Below are positions 24,476 through 31,925 of a DNA stretch of 41,753 nucleotides, piece after piece. The stretch spans positions 1 to 41,753 of the forward strand of contig PBDJ01000037.1 of the NCBI GenBank assembly GCA_002717365.1. The letters are read 5' to 3'. The position numbers and the translations under genes are program-made. Position 1 is the first letter of the stretch. Each line of letters starts with the position of its first letter. A model generated the notes under the pieces. It searched no databases. It was not told where the DNA came from and saw only the letters and a program-made list of their open reading frames with translations. The DNA is from Acidimicrobiaceae bacterium (GTDB lineage Bacteria; Actinomycetota; Acidimicrobiia; Acidimicrobiales; MedAcidi-G1).

Positions 24476-26617
24476 CTAGCCGACGAAGGCCGAAGCGAAC
24501 ACTAGCGACACGATCGTCATCACCTTGATGAGGATGTTCATGGCTGGACCAGAGGTGTCCTTGAACGGATCACCTACCGTGTCGCCGACAACAGCCGCCT
24601 TGTGGCTTTCTGAGCCCTTACCGCCGTGATGTCCAGTCTCGATGTACTTCTTGGCGTTGTCCCACGCTCCACCGGCATTGGCCATGAAGATGGCTAAACA
24701 GAAGCCGGAGACTAGGGCGCCAGCCAGGAACCCGCCCAGAGCGTTGATACTGATGAACCCCATGACTAGAGGGATAACCACTGCCAAAGACCCGGGGAGT
24801 ACCATCTCCTTGAGTGATGCCGTGGTGGAGATAGCTACACAGCGCGCCGAGTCTGGGTGCACCCCAGGCTGGCCCTCCCGTAGACCGGGGATTTCCCGGA
24901 ACTGGCGCCGGACCTCCTCGATCATGTCTTGAGCGGCTCTGCCTACGGCATCGATGGTTAGGGCGGCGAACAGGAAGGGCAGCATGGCGCCGAGGAATAA
25001 GCCGATGAAGACGGTCACGTTGCCGACGTCGAGGGATAACGAACCGCCCGCCAGGCTGACCGCAAACTCGAAGCTCTTGAACAGCGCTAGGGCAGTTAGG
25101 GCAGCGGATCCCACAGCGAAACCCTTAGCCACGGCAGCCGTTGTGTTTCCCAGCGAGTCCAGAGCGTCGGTCACCTCGCGGACACTCGGATCAAGCTCGG
25201 CCATTTCCGCTATTCCCCCAGCGTTGTCGGCGATTGGCCCGTAGGCGTCGACCGATACAACTACCCCCGTAGTTGCCAACATCCCGATGGCGGCCACGGC
25301 GATTCCGTAGATCCCGCCGTCCAGCGCTCCGATGGAGTCGAAGGCCATTTCACCACCCCAGTAGGCGACGGCGACGCCAACACCCAGCAGGGCTACGGAA
25401 GTAGCGACCGAGACCATGCCGGCCGATACCCCACCCAGAATGGTGGTGGCGGGCCCAGTTTCCGTCTGCTTGGCGATCTTCTTCACCGGGCGGAAGTGAT
25501 CTGAGGTGTAGAACTCAGCCGTCTTGCCTAGAGCCCAACCCACGATGAGGCCCCCAATCACTGAGATAGCCAGGCCTATCGGAGAGTCGAAGGAATCGTT
25601 GTCGCCAAATAGCCAGGCGGCAACACCCACTGTGCCAACCACAGTCAATGCCATGGCCACATTGGTTCCCATGTGCAGAGCCTTTGACAGTGCTTTGGTA
25701 TCGGTGGAGGTCCCGCCCTTCACCAAGAAGGAACCCAAGATGGAGGCCACCATTCCAACCAGAGCGATGGCCATGGGGAAGGCAAGTAGGGAAATGTTGG
25801 TGGTGGCACTGGCCTCCTCGGCACCCAAGCCGAGGGCGAAAGCCACCAGCGAGATCGGGGCGATGATCGATCCTGCGTAGCTCTCGAACAGGTCAGCGCC
25901 CATGCCGGCAACGTCCCCCACATTATCGCCCACGTTGTCGGCGATGGTTGCCGGATTCCGCGGATCGTCCTCCGGGATGCCGGCTTCGACCTTGCCGACC
26001 AGGTCAGCACCCACGTCGGCTGCCTTGGTGTAGATGCCGCCCCCGACACGGGAGAACAGGGCGATTGAGGAGGCACCTAGGCCATAGGCGGTCACGACTT
26101 CGAAGGCGTCATCGACCTCGATGACCAACACGAAGAGTACGTAGACGACCATGAGACCGAGGAGGGCCAAGCCGGCAACCGTGAAGCCCATGACCGCCCC
26201 GCCTCGGAAGGCGATTGGGAGGGCGCGACCAGGACCGTCTTTAGCGGCCTCCGTCGTCCGAGCATTGGCCATGGTGGCCACCGTCATGCCCACGTATCCA
26301 GCAAGGCCAGAGAGCGTCGCTCCGATCACGTAAGTCGCGGCAGCTGCCGGAGCGATAAGAGCCGCAATGAGCACGGCCATGACCACCACGAAGACCGAAA
26401 CCCAGCTGTACTCCTTCTTGAGGAAAGCCCGGGCGCCTTTCTGTATCTCGGTCATGAGGAAGACCATGCGCTCGTCGCCCGGGGAGGCGGCCTTTACGTT
26501 GTTGTAGAAGAACCACGCGAGCAACAGGCCCATGAGGGCCGACGCGCCCGCCAGATACGGAATGGCGTCCAAGGGAGTGTCTCCAAGGGTGTGTCGGACG
26601 TGTTTATTTCCATCCAA
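24476..26617 (-). CDS. hppA: membrane-bound ion-translocating pyrophosphatase
   Basis: A 713-residue membrane pyrophosphatase with about 15-16 hydrophobic segments. It hydrolyses cytoplasmic pyrophosphate and pumps H+ (or Na+) out. The substrate motif is [20 protein letters not shown], followed by [20 protein letters not shown]; the second acidic motif is [18 protein letters not shown], and a third region near the C-terminus is [17 protein letters not shown]. At 25133-25150 the sequence encodes GNTTAA. Ala at this fifth position is the known mark of K+-dependent enzymes, where K+-independent ones have Lys. Start is uncertain: TTG 26617 opens the frame, while TTG 26572 has GGAGA about 8 nt upstream. 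No rotary ATPase or ppa is nearby. H+ versus Na+ cannot be decided by eye. Confidence 0.95.
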
Positions 26618-27434: not shown

Positions 27435-28838
27435 GTGCGCATCATCGTGGTGGGTGCTGGCGAGACTGGCACCTACGTTGCTGAACGTCTGAACGGGCAG
27501 GGCCACGAGGTGGCCCTCATTGAGAAGGCCCCCGAGCGCTTTCTTGAGGTTCGGGAGCAGTCTGATTTCCTGACCGTCCTAGGCAGCGGAACCGACATGG
27601 ACGTCCTCCAGGCCGCGGGAATAGAAGACACCCACCTCCTGGTAGCCGTTACCCGAAGCGACGAGACCAACATCGTGGTCGCCCTGCTGGCCCGCCGAGC
27701 CGGGGTGGCCAAGACGGTGGTCCGAGTGGAGTCCCGGAGCCTGCGACGCGCAGAGGTAGACGCTCTGTTCGACGGAGCGGATGATCACCTGGTGATAGAT
27801 CCGGACGAAGAAGTTGCCGAGGCCGTCCTGCGGCTCATGGAGTATCCGGGTGCACTTGAACTCAAGCGGATGGCCGGTGGCGAGGTAGTGATCCTCAGCG
27901 CCCGCCTTCCGGGCCATGCACCGCTCGTCGGTCAGTCCCTCCATGCCCTGGGAGCCGAACTAGAACCGGACTGGGATTTCATCGTGGGATCGATCACCCG
28001 GCGTGAACATGAGGAAGCAGATGAGGACACGATCATCCCCCGTGGCGACTGGATCCTACGTGAGGCCGACCTGCTGACCGTGATCTGCAAGCGACGCGCC
28101 CTACGTGACGTCACAACCCGCATGGGCTTGGCCCGCGACATGCCGACCAGGGCGCTTCTGCTGGGTGGCGGGAGAACCGGCCAGATGCTGGCCGAACAGC
28201 TAATCGAGCGGGGCCTTGATGTGGCCATCATCGAGAAGCGCGAGGAGCGGGCCAAGGAACTCTCTGAGATGTTCGCCGGCCGGGCCCTTGTGTTCGGAGG
28301 CGATATCGCCAATGCCGAGATGCTGGACGAAGCTGACGCGGCTGGTCAGGACGTAGTCATTGGCCTGACCGGCGCGGACGACGCCAACGTCCTGGCCTGT
28401 CTGTATGCCAAGGATGCTGGGCGCCGGCGGCGGTCGCCTCGCGACGAGGGCGGTCCAGAAACCATTGCTGTGGTCCACAGTTTGGGGCTTCTAGGCCTTC
28501 TGGAGTCACACCAGGTGGACGCTACCCTCAGTCCCCGGACAGCGTCGGCCAACAGTGTGCTCCGCTTCGTACGTGGCGAGGGCGAAACGGTGGCCGCCGT
28601 AGCTACCTCGCTTCACGGAGATGCCGAGGTCCTGGAGTTGGCGGTCGCCGAGGGGTGCGGCTGCGACGGGAAGTCCATCGCCGACCTGGGGCTGCACGAG
28701 GATGTACTCATTGCTGCCATCGTCCGAGACGGGAAACCCCAGATCGCCCGCGGCCGAAGCACCCTACGGGCTCAGGACCACGTGATCGCCGTGACTCGTC
28801 CCAGCCAGGCACCGATCCTGTCGTCGCTGTTCGAGTGA
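27435..28838 (+). CDS. trkA: Trk potassium uptake regulator TrkA (two RCK units)
   Basis: A 467-residue cytoplasmic TrkA with two RCK units. Unit 1 has the NAD-binding motif VVGAGETGTYVAERL (Gly7, Gly9, Gly12) and a TrkA_C domain (about 140-217). Unit 2 has LLLGGGRTGQMLAEQL (Gly244, Gly246, Gly249) and a second TrkA_C ending at the C-terminus. It forms the NAD/ATP-responsive gating ring for TrkH. Unit 2 contains an insertion rich in basic and acidic residues, GRRRRSPRDEGGPET (about 333-347), between two strands where TrkA proteins usually have a short turn. The GTG start is supported by AGGGAAGGA 7 nt upstream. Two trkH genes follow, the first 13 bp downstream. Confidence 0.93.
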   Translation: MRIIVVGAGETGTYVAERLNGQGHEVALIEKAPERFLEVREQSDFLTVLGSGTDMDVLQAAGIEDTHLLVAVTRSDETNIVVALLARRAGVAKTVVRVESRSLRRAEVDALFDGADDHLVIDPDEEVAEAVLRLMEYPGALELKRMAGGEVVILSARLPGHAPLVGQSLHALGAELEPDWDFIVGSITRREHEEADEDTIIPRGDWILREADLLTVICKRRALRDVTTRMGLARDMPTRALLLGGGRTGQMLAEQLIERGLDVAIIEKREERAKELSEMFAGRALVFGGDIANAEMLDEADAAGQDVVIGLTGADDANVLACLYAKDAGRRRRSPRDEGGPETIAVVHSLGLLGLLESHQVDATLSPRTASANSVLRFVRGEGETVAAVATSLHGDAEVLELAVAEGCGCDGKSIADLGLHEDVLIAAIVRDGKPQIARGRSTLRAQDHVIAVTRPSQAPILSSLFE

Positions 28839-28851
28839 TCCGGTTGGTCGG

Positions 28852-30375
28852 ATGATCTTCACCGCCCCGGCCAGCCAACGATCGGCGGCCGGGACCGGCC
28901 CCCCTCGGGCATCGTGGACTTCGGCCGGCGCACAGGCTGTTGCAGCCGCTCTGGGTGGCCTGAGCCTCCTTGCGATCTCGTCGGGACTGGTGGACCTACT
29001 CGGAGCGGGCGACGACACCACCGTCTTCCTCCTTACCGGAACCCTGTCGGGTCTGGCTGCGGCTTGGTTACTGGTACTGATCCGTCCACCAGGCCGCGTC
29101 CGGGACTCCCACGTCCTGTCGGGGGTCGCTGTCGCCCTACCGCTGCTCGTCGGCCTGCTGGCTGGTCTCCACCTGCTTGTTGGAAGCACCACTTCGGTCG
29201 TTGATGCGCTGGCTGAGGCCACCGCCGGCCTGACCACAACCGCCCTTGGGGCAATCGAGCCGGCCGGTAGCGACCACGGTCTGCGATTCCTCCGGGCAGC
29301 CACCCAGTGGGCGGGAGGCCTCGGAGCCCTGTTCGTAGGCGTGGCCATCCTCCCGTTCTTTGGAGCGGGACGCGAGTTCGCTGACCGGTCACGGATACGG
29401 GGGCGCCGACCGATGACCCCCACCCAACGGATAGCCCTACGCAACATCCTGATTGTGTACGGCACTGCCTCCGTGGCGACCTGGTTGGCCTACGGGGTTG
29501 CCGGCCTTTCAATCTTCGACGCCCTCCTGGTGGCCATGGCCACCGTGTCCACCGGAGGGATTGTGGACGGCGACCCGTTCGCCCGACCTGCTGTTCAGTG
29601 GGTAGCAGTAGGCGGCATGGTGGTCGCTGGGACCAGCCTGGTCGTTCTCTGGCGACTGACTGTAGGACGGGCTCGGGGACTGTGGCGGTCGGCAGAACTA
29701 CGGGTCTACCTAGGTCTACTGGTTATCGGGACGGCACTCTTTCTCTTGTGGACTGACGGAGCGGGACCGGACGGCGTCCGCCACGCTGCATTCACAACGA
29801 CTGCGGCGGTGACGACCACCGGCTTCCCGTCGGCACCAGCCGGAACGTGGTCAGCCGCAGTTCCCGTCCTCCTACTGGGATTGGTGTCCATCGGACCCAT
29901 GACCGGATCGGCCGGCGGCGGCTTCCAGATCCTGCGCCACCGGGCCCTCCTCCAGGTCGCCCTCCGTGAGATGGTCCGCCAGATCCACCCACGGGCCGTG
30001 CTCCGGGTTCGCCTCGGTGGCTGGGTGGCCGCCGAAGACACCCTCGCACGAGTGGTAGTTACCCAGTTCCTGTCGGTCAGCGTGCTGTTCGTGACGGCTC
30101 TTGCGGTAGCCGTCCTCGGCCTTGACGTTGTCCCCGCCCTCGGGGCCGCCGTCCACGCGGTTTCGACCGCCGGACCGGTTCGAGCATTGGACGGAACGGT
30201 CCTTGACCCGTCGGCCTGGCCAGCGCCCACCCGGCTGGCCCTGCTCCCGGCCATGGTCATTGGTCGGCTCTCCATCTATCCAGCCCTAGTGGCGCTCAGT
30301 GCCGGAGTGGCGGTATGCCGTAACCGAATTCGACTGGCCCGCAGGATTCGGTCCTATCGGGGGCGGACGCTATGA
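28852..30375 (+). CDS. TrkH-family channel with altered first filter loop
   Basis: A 507-residue TrkH/TrkG-type membrane protein with the four-fold membrane-pore-membrane layout. Its pore loops are GLTTTALGAI (127-136), ATVSTGGIVDG, AVTTTGFPSA and AVSTAGPV. In the neighbouring TrkH the first loop reads GYTATGATVF, so aligning from the shared DAL..E....G the filter glycine is replaced by Ala131 (codon 29242-29244); the other three loops keep their filter glycine. TGSAGGGFQILRHRAL corresponds to the TGSTAGG..K..R segment. It is more divergent than the second copy. Stop and next start overlap (ATGA). It probably works with the upstream TrkA, but transport selectivity may not be plain K+. Confidence 0.85.
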   Translation: MIFTAPASQRSAAGTGPPRASWTSAGAQAVAAALGGLSLLAISSGLVDLLGAGDDTTVFLLTGTLSGLAAAWLLVLIRPPGRVRDSHVLSGVAVALPLLVGLLAGLHLLVGSTTSVVDALAEATAGLTTTALGAIEPAGSDHGLRFLRAATQWAGGLGALFVGVAILPFFGAGREFADRSRIRGRRPMTPTQRIALRNILIVYGTASVATWLAYGVAGLSIFDALLVAMATVSTGGIVDGDPFARPAVQWVAVGGMVVAGTSLVVLWRLTVGRARGLWRSAELRVYLGLLVIGTALFLLWTDGAGPDGVRHAAFTTTAAVTTTGFPSAPAGTWSAAVPVLLLGLVSIGPMTGSAGGGFQILRHRALLQVALREMVRQIHPRAVLRVRLGGWVAAEDTLARVVVTQFLSVSVLFVTALAVAVLGLDVVPALGAAVHAVSTAGPVRALDGTVLDPSAWPAPTRLALLPAMVIGRLSIYPALVALSAGVAVCRNRIRLARRIRSYRGRTL

Positions 30376-31925
30376 CCACCCCATTTTCCCTGGAGGACCG
30401 GTGGGCGAGCACCACCGGTCACGTGACCGGCCTGGCCCTGCTGTTTATGTCTGTGGGCATGTTTGTCTCTGCCATCGTTGGACTGGTGGCAGGCTCGGCC
30501 GGCTTGGCTCTACTTGGGGCGGCGGCCATTACGGCCTTTCTTGGAATAGGCCTGTGGTGGACGACTCGGACCGGCGCTCTGGACCACGCCACCGTCTTCA
30601 CAGCGGTGGGGGGCACCTGGGTGGTCGCCTCGATGGTCGGAGCGATTCCCTATCTTCTGGCCGGAACGTTCGCTGTCGCCGGTCGACCGTGGGCAGTTGT
30701 GGTCGCCGACGCCTTGTTCGAGTCGATCTCCGGCTATACGGCTACCGGCGCGACGGTGTTCGGTGGGCACAACCAGATCGCCGACCAGGGCGCCGGGATT
30801 CTGCTCTACCGACAGCTCACGCAGTGGGCCGGGGGCATGGGCATCGTTGTCCTTGTGGTTACTGTGCTGCCGTCCCTGCGAGCCAGCGGCCTCGGCTTGA
30901 TCGACGCCGAGGCTCCCGGCATGGGAGTGGACCGGCTGGCCCCACGGGTGCGGGATACGGCGATTCGCTTCTGGCGTCTCTACCTGGGACTCACCGTGAT
31001 CATCGCCGTCGGCTTCCTTGTGGCCGGCATGGGTCCCTTCGATGCCGTGGCCCACGCCCTCACCACCGCCTCGACCGGGGGCTTTTCGACCCGGGACGCA
31101 TCGATTGGATACTGGGACAGCGTGGCCGTTGAGTCTGTCCTAATCGTGGCCCTTATCGTCGCAGCGGCCAGCTTTACGCTCCACAGCCATTCGTGGAGCC
31201 GGAAGCGGATCATCCACTTCGGTGACCACGAGTTCCGCGGATTCCTGAGCGTTCTGGGCATCTGCACACTTGTCGTGTCAACACTCCTGGCCCTCGACGG
31301 CATGGCTCCCGCACGTGCCTTGCGCATCGGACTATTCAACGTGGTCACCCTGGGCACCAGCGGTGGCTTCGGCAACGCCACCGGGGCTGGCAGCGACGGT
31401 GACTGGGTCCGCTGGGCGGCCGGCTCGCAGATGGTTCTCCTGTTCCTCCTTGTCTTTGGAGGGTGTACTGGGTCGACCGCCGGCGGGGTGAAGATCATGC
31501 GACTCCGGGTCGGCATAGCCCATGCCGCACGCACCCTGCACGGCTTTCGCCGCCCACGGGCCTTGCTCCCAGTCCGTCAGGGCACGGCCACCCTTCCGGA
31601 CTCCCTAGTGGAGCGCGTTGCCGGCTTCATGGTCGTGTACGGCATGTTGGTGGTCGGGGGAACAGTACTGGTGGCCGCCCTGGGCACGGACCTGGTTACG
31701 GCGGTCAGCGGGGTGATCGGATCCCTGGGCAACATGGGGCCCGTTCTGGGAGACGCTGGCCCCACGGCCTCCTTTGTGGACGGCTTCCCAACTCCGGCTC
31801 GCTTGGTGCTAGCCCTCCTGATGCTGGTCGGACGCTTGGAGATCTTCCCCATGCTGTTGATGCTGGTAGCGCCCTACCGTTTGTTCCGGGGAGCGGCCCG
31901 GCAGACGAGGCACCCCGGCCACTAG
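30372..31925 (+). CDS. trkH: Trk potassium uptake channel TrkH
   Basis: A 517-residue TrkH, the K+ translocating subunit in the inner membrane. The four pore loops are canonical: SGYTATGATVFG (filter Gly126, codon 30747-30749), TTASTGGFSTRD, TLGTSGGFGNAT and GSLGNMGPVLG. The conserved GGCTGSTAGGVKIMRLRV follows loop 3. With TrkA at 27435 it makes a complete Trk system. The start overlaps the stop of the preceding TrkH-like gene by 4 bp, so the three genes are one operon. Its stop codon shares the CTAG sequence with the stop of the convergent aminopeptidase gene. Confidence 0.94.
   Translation: MTTPFSLEDRWASTTGHVTGLALLFMSVGMFVSAIVGLVAGSAGLALLGAAAITAFLGIGLWWTTRTGALDHATVFTAVGGTWVVASMVGAIPYLLAGTFAVAGRPWAVVVADALFESISGYTATGATVFGGHNQIADQGAGILLYRQLTQWAGGMGIVVLVVTVLPSLRASGLGLIDAEAPGMGVDRLAPRVRDTAIRFWRLYLGLTVIIAVGFLVAGMGPFDAVAHALTTASTGGFSTRDASIGYWDSVAVESVLIVALIVAAASFTLHSHSWSRKRIIHFGDHEFRGFLSVLGICTLVVSTLLALDGMAPARALRIGLFNVVTLGTSGGFGNATGAGSDGDWVRWAAGSQMVLLFLLVFGGCTGSTAGGVKIMRLRVGIAHAARTLHGFRRPRALLPVRQGTATLPDSLVERVAGFMVVYGMLVVGGTVLVAALGTDLVTAVSGVIGSLGNMGPVLGDAGPTASFVDGFPTPARLVLALLMLVGRLEIFPMLLMLVAPYRLFRGAARQTRHPGH

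Follow-up and report, generated by a model that had tools for sequence, protein, structure and literature searches.

In a 41,753-nucleotide stretch of DNA from an Acidimicrobiaceae bacterium (GCA_002717365.1, contig PBDJ01000037.1, positions 1-41,753; hereafter the window), the potassium uptake gene trkA is followed by two unlike trkH genes. The first of these, trkH1, encodes a divergent TrkH paralogue in which alanine takes the place of the glycine in the first of the four selectivity-filter loops, and its partner, trkH2, encodes a canonical TrkH. This rests on the sequence and its alignments, on gene order, on signs of purifying selection and on conservation in many of the order's families. 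From these observations we infer the affinity and gating of TrkH1 and its sharing of TrkA, and we give about an even chance to the reading that TrkH1 is a working pore of low affinity or weak selectivity, which shares TrkA with the canonical TrkH2.

Two TrkH proteins in one operon

All three genes lie on the forward strand. According to the list of open reading frames, trkA (27435..28838) starts with GTG and encodes a regulatory RCK protein of 467 amino acids, which carries Pfam TrkA_N in two stretches together with TrkA_C and scores 330 bits with the NCBIfam TrkA model NF007039 (cut-off 293). Its stop is separated by 13 bp from the ATG of trkH1 (28852..30375), which encodes 507 amino acids with the filter residues A-G-G-G in loops 1-4. 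The 517-residue product of trkH2 (30372..31925) has the canonical filter G-G-G-G, which TrkH1 lacks. The stop of trkH1 and the ATG of trkH2 share the four letters ATGA (30372..30375), and thus the open reading frames and the DNA both bear out the gene order and the 4-bp overlap reported in the initial annotation of this locus.

Both proteins score above the cut-off of Pfam TrkH PF02386 (27 bits; TrkH1 67, TrkH2 152.5), and neither reaches those of NCBIfam TIGR00933 (331; TrkH1 135.6, TrkH2 225) and NF008020 (866; TrkH1 115, TrkH2 253.5). Against structures of TrkH from Vibrio parahaemolyticus (VpTrkH), TrkH1 matched 4j9u/3pjz with an E-value of 3e-30 and TrkH2 matched 3pjz with 1.4e-76. There was no PF02386 match beyond TrkH1 and TrkH2 in the genome to which the window belongs (1.87 Mb, 45 contigs, 78% complete). 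Relatives bearing TrkH1 were found among genome contigs of Candidatus Microthrix, Acidimicrobiaceae and Acidimicrobiales metagenome-assembled genomes, including an ALOHA genome with 90% identity over 283 residues.

An AlphaFold2 model of TrkH1 was of moderate confidence (mean predicted local distance difference test score, pLDDT, 64.4; predicted template-modelling score, pTM, 0.70). It was closest to chain 3pjz_A (TM 0.80/0.86; Z 38.2, 450 aligned residues, root-mean-square deviation 2.6) and, after VpTrkH, matched KtrB, HKT and KdpA, so that TrkH1 is predicted to have the TrkH fold with four M1-P-M2 repeats. Since the mean pLDDT was 52 at residues 131-140, the model supports the fold and not the geometry of the filter loop.

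The first filter position of TrkH1

In the phmmer alignment to 4j9u/3pjz, Ala131 of TrkH1 (codon GCC, 29242..29244) lies opposite the filter residue Gly113 of VpTrkH, in a stretch that runs ungapped from the DA motif of loop 1 to the end of the filter. The same pairing was obtained in a 15-row MAFFT alignment and with a profile of 16 TrkH1 proteins aligned to the two structures. The corresponding residue of TrkH2 is Gly126 (codon GGC, 30747..30749), and the residue and codon numbers given at first for both proteins were correct. A misalignment, with Gly133 as the true filter residue of TrkH1, can be ruled out, since the pairwise, multiple and profile alignments are all ungapped at Ala131. In loops 2-4, TrkH1 has glycine opposite VpTrkH Gly222, Gly322 and Gly439 (the last two numbers are from our alignment); Gly222 is treated as a filter residue in PMC6987127.

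Alanine is found in 17 of the 17 TrkH1 sequences from the family of the window (f1) and its named kin. The 16 sequences other than that of the window rule out a local variant or a sequencing error.

Tandem trkH genes in the order

Using TrkH1 as the query, we searched 298 genomes of the order, of which 110 had a match and 188 did not. Regions were fetched from 105 of the 109 matching genomes other than that of the window, together with seven named loci and the window. Four genomes with weak or short matches (G161, G218, G267 and G270) were left out, and locus L040, identical to L036, was dropped. Wider searches with the same query matched 61 of 198 genomes in the class and 65 of 396 in the phylum, where the matches were read in part and distant TrkH proteins are under-counted because TrkH1 served as the query. 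Genome searches thus spanned the order, class and phylum. A plasmid search with TrkH1 gave 115 records; among the best 25 of the 115, all were below 60% identity and none covered 80% of the query.

The 115 loci read comprised 85 with the arrangement trkA-trkH-trkH, one trkA-trkH-trkH-trkH, 23 trkA-trkH and three lone trkH genes, as well as two trkH-trkH and one trkH-trkH-trkH without trkA in the stretch. At least two trkH genes in tandem were therefore present in 89 of the 115 loci, which correspond, after a recount that took in G206 and the window, to 84 of the order's 298 genomes plus the named loci. The open frame of the second trkH, measured from stop to stop with start codons unassigned, starts no later than the end of the first gene in 87 of the 89 tandems. 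A second TrkH was found in the same fetched locus for 89 of 92 first-type genes; among the remaining three, the stretch of L038 ends inside the gene, and the partners of L067 and L090 are on another contig. In these two genomes of family f58 (L067, L090, L145 and L146), the Ala-type first gene adjoins trkA and the canonical TrkH is encoded on the other contig, indicating that the TrkH1/TrkH2 pair can be separated.

Other potassium importers were sought as KdpA and Kup only. Neither had a match in any of the 21 genomes from the family of the window, of which 13 are at least 90% complete; the same searches matched 5 and 6 of 14 control genomes. Because of this, and because only two PF02386 matches were found in the incomplete genome of the window, this family may depend mainly on the Trk operon for importing K+.

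Filter residues by gene type and family

In the 92 first genes, loop 1 was readable in 91 (L123 lacks it, as L038 lacks loops 3-4, where the stretches end) and had Ala in 43, Ser in 18, Asn in 16 and Gly in 14. Loops 2, 3 and 4 had glycine in 92/92, 91/91 and 90/91, respectively. The second-type genes had glycine in loop 1 in 94/94, in loop 2 in 94/94, in loop 3 in 93/94 and in loop 4 in 93/93, and the single-copy genes in every loop (20/20). Wherever readable, the partner of a first gene keeps the loop-1 glycine. Of the 91 first genes with a readable loop 1, 77 have a residue other than glycine there, and such genes occur in 15 of the 16 coded families having a first gene. Besides the uniform alanine in the family of the window, all first genes had Ser in f36 (10/10), Asn in f59 (10/10) and Gly in f28 (11/11), and the remaining families were mixed or had Ala.

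A few single cases were seen as well. The first TrkH of L059 (f28) has alanine in loop 4, and the second of the three tandem TrkH proteins of L053 (f14) has alanine in loop 3. The sole TrkH found in its stretch in family f96 (L203:3655-5316) has Ser in loop 1 and Gly in loops 2-4. In f36, the open frames of five Ser-type first genes (L061, L074, L086, L099 and L105) are about 441-455 codons long, and their matches to the query do not start before residue ~87-96, so that the N-terminal domain 0 seems to be missing.

Phylogeny of TrkH1 and TrkH2

In a tree reconstructed without the loop-1 columns, the first genes all formed a single clade (92 sequences; Shimodaira-Hasegawa-like approximate likelihood ratio test, SH-aLRT, 99), apart from the second-type (94) and single-copy (20) genes. 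With a mixture model, a thinned tree including relatives from the class and phylum again grouped the first genes (28 sequences, 97) and the second genes (28 sequences, 98); this tree left out the columns of loops 1 and 3 and contained 28 of the 92 first, 28 of the 94 second and 8 of the 20 single-copy genes. Both trees were quick reconstructions with long branches. TrkH1 and TrkH2 form separate old clades, which rules out a recent duplication. The pair initially annotated as two unlike TrkH genes in one operon is a true paralogue and a canonical partner beside one trkA. Since the first-gene side also took in the order's single-copy genes and four genes that do not belong to the order, the trees give no exact age for the split. 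The loop-1 residue changed state 13 times on the tree, with one unread sequence counted as a state.

Selection and conserved residues

The ratio of nonsynonymous to synonymous substitution rates (dN/dS) between the window and genome G227 was 0.069 for TrkA, 0.141 for TrkH1 and 0.161 for TrkH2, and between L034 and L035 it was 0.062, 0.145 and 0.103, respectively. TrkH1 is thus under purifying selection (dN/dS 0.14), which rules out a decaying trkH1 gene. Gating residue Arg468 is retained in 88 of 91 TrkH1 sequences, and Gly346 and Gly355 in 91 of 91 each. At position 437, which lies near the loop-4 filter, 68 of the 91 have Thr. Pro87 and Trp186 are kept in no TrkH1 sequence.

Among 88 positions conserved in the second-type and single-copy genes, 36 are kept by under half of the TrkH1 sequences. 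In the loop between domains D1 and D2, 10 of 12 conserved residues are lost, compared with 26 of 76 in the remainder of the protein (Fisher p = 0.003, for regions drawn after the alignment had been seen). PMC6987127 describes the HN1 and HN2 contacts of VpTrkH with TrkA, with Ile178 and Ser389 in the D1-D2 and D3-D4 loops. We infer that the contact role of these two residues would extend to the whole of each loop. TrkH1 keeps 3 of 3 conserved residues in the D3-D4 (HN2) loop and 2 of 12 in the D1-D2 (HN1) loop. Within the family of the window, the D1-D2 loop of TrkH1 has a conserved sequence of its own, and therefore the contact with TrkA looks rebuilt and not simply lost.

A second lineage with a changed filter

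Separate trkA-trkH-trkH tandems occur in family f101 (L194-L199, L214-L236), which belongs to another class of the same phylum, presumably the Coriobacteriia. In the tandem loci fetched from f101, the first TrkH had alanine in loop 3 in 6 of 6, and the second had glycine wherever readable. Across the 39 genomes of this family, 32 matched, giving 23 full first-type genes with Ala (16) or Gly (7) in loop 3 and Gly in loops 1, 2 and 4 (23/23 each). Where a second copy was found, 12 of 13 genomes had loop-3 alanine, compared with 4 of 10 where there was none (Fisher p = 0.019, from related sequences in draft genomes). The partners were tallied by hand; the second copy of G746, present in pieces, was counted as present, and the fragmentary first genes of G665 (with loop-3 Ala) and G646 were excluded. 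On the thinned tree the f101 genes lie apart from the first genes of the order.

Function of TrkH1

In the reading that we prefer, TrkH1 would be a working, divergent TrkH that is produced alongside TrkA and TrkH2. The alanine of its first loop would lower the affinity for cations, and possibly the discrimination between K+ and Na+, without closing the pore, as three filter glycines remain. A Gly-to-Ala change in KtrB is said to cost two orders of magnitude in affinity for both K+ and Na+, and all four KtrB filter glycines were reportedly found by Tholema in 2005 to be essential for high-affinity, selective K+ uptake. Lowered affinity, better supported than Na+ selectivity, is most likely what the alanine would bring about, and the Ser-bearing orthologues may pass Na+. 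TrkH favours K+ less than 2-fold (PMC6987127), and thus there may be little selectivity to lose. The contact with TrkA would have been rebuilt, with a diverged D1-D2 (HN1) loop and the few conserved D3-D4 (HN2) residues kept, and nucleotide control of TrkH1 should therefore differ from that of TrkH2. The presence of a single trkA next to two trkH genes suggests that TrkA is shared; it would then serve a high-affinity TrkH2 pore and a lower-affinity, differently gated TrkH1 pore, perhaps in one mixed dimer, a putative TrkH1:TrkH2 assembly that we consider plausible.

Several observations weigh against this. Only 11 of 91 TrkH1 sequences retain Lys357 of the intramembrane loop, so that pore function is not assured, and the mean column entropy of TrkH1 (2.17, compared with 1.60 for TrkH2) also fits weak constraint. 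The N-terminal region has lost 7 of 9 conserved residues, and the divergence is therefore not special to the TrkA-contact loop. The change in loop 1 is not obligatory, since 14 of 91 first genes (11 of them in f28) retain the glycine, and 188 of the 298 genomes of the order have no match to TrkH1 at all. Outside the order, four f101 genomes have loop-3 alanine with no second copy detected, and the tandems of f114 and f127 keep all eight glycines.

Part of this evidence would suit a non-conducting or barely conducting subunit whose role, as the partner of TrkH2 on the TrkA ring, is to tune or stabilise TrkH2. Lys357 is mostly lost, Pro87 and Trp186 are lost throughout, the loop-1 glycine is gone, TrkH1 varies more than TrkH2, and a second TrkH is almost always encoded in the same locus. 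However, a dead pore should keep neither the glycines of loops 2-4 nor Arg468 almost without exception, and we regard such a regulatory subunit as unlikely. Still less probable, in our judgement, is a drift under relaxed constraint, in which TrkH2 secures K+ uptake and the loop-1 glycine of TrkH1 gave way to small residues with no new function under selection. The coexistence of Ala, Ser, Asn and Gly with repeated state changes on the tree, the association of alanine with a second copy in f101 and the weak selectivity of TrkH in any case (PMC6987127) are in line with drift, but TrkH1 has a dN/dS like that of TrkH2, only three replacement residues occur in 77 sequences and loops 2-4 are nearly untouched.

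Selectivity for Na+, which would make the TrkH1 channel a bacterial equivalent of the class I HKT proteins of plants (SGGG), we think quite improbable, more so than drift. In plant HKT proteins the same position varies, with Ser or Gly in loop 1 and glycine in loops 2-4 at 100, 98 and 97%, and a Ser-for-Gly rule describes their selectivity (PMC7918770). Serine is found in 18 of the 91 first genes, including all those of f36, and the plant rule directly covers these alone; a Na+-permeable TrkH1 is therefore less supported where loop 1 has alanine. The window and 42 other sequences have Ala, not the Ser of class I, and 16 have Asn. The Gly-to-Ala change in KtrB, moreover, reportedly lowered affinity for both ions. 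Of the roles initially proposed for the first protein, a weakly selective or regulatory partner thus fits everything seen, whereas a Na+-permeable one has lost ground.

Relation to known systems and significance

The TrkH1/TrkH2 pair is a variant of the Trk system and not a new kind of system, and we found no description of it in the open-licence literature. The Vibrio parahaemolyticus TrkH-TrkA system (3pjz, 4j9u, 6v4j-l) is alike in fold, four loops, intramembrane loop, D4M2 Arg and partner TrkA gene. It differs in its filter, G-G-G-G compared with A-G-G-G, and TrkH1 has Gln at the loop Lys and is without most of the HN1-loop residues that are conserved among TrkH2 and single-copy TrkH proteins. 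The mutants of Vibrio alginolyticus KtrB (Tholema 1999, 2005) are likewise reported to have one filter glycine changed to alanine, but were made in the laboratory, whereas TrkH1 is a natural conserved state. Escherichia coli also has two TrkH-type proteins per cell, TrkG and TrkH, whose cation behaviour differs; according to PMC9898762, both have a conserved glycine in each pore loop and trkG was presumably acquired from a phage. The present pair, in contrast, is a tandem found in many families of an order, with one filter glycine replaced. The class I (SGGG) and class II (GGGG) HKT proteins of plants (PMC7918770) resemble it in that loop 1 varies, loops 2-4 have glycine and some TrkH1 proteins have Ser, but TrkH1 of the window has Ala, groups with bacterial TrkH and adjoins trkA.

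Close to the operon, on the opposite strand, is a long open reading frame (24476-26617) whose product we take to resemble a membrane-bound pyrophosphatase.

Replacement of the loop-1 glycine in most first genes and nearly all families having them provides natural experiments on the role of one filter glycine, and f101 is a second lineage with a similar loss at another loop. It is possible, though we hold it only tentatively and think it rather doubtful, that two lineages of the phylum independently evolved an asymmetric double-pore Trk, a TrkH1:TrkH2 heterodimer on one TrkA ring with one canonical pore and another weakened at one filter position (loop 1 or loop 3), the two being separately gated. 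The split between TrkH1 and TrkH2 is a bacterial parallel to the class split of plant HKT proteins and allows a direct test of mixed Trk dimers. If the asymmetric arrangement exists, the same nucleotide switch would control a K+ pore together with a second pore that is leakier for cations.

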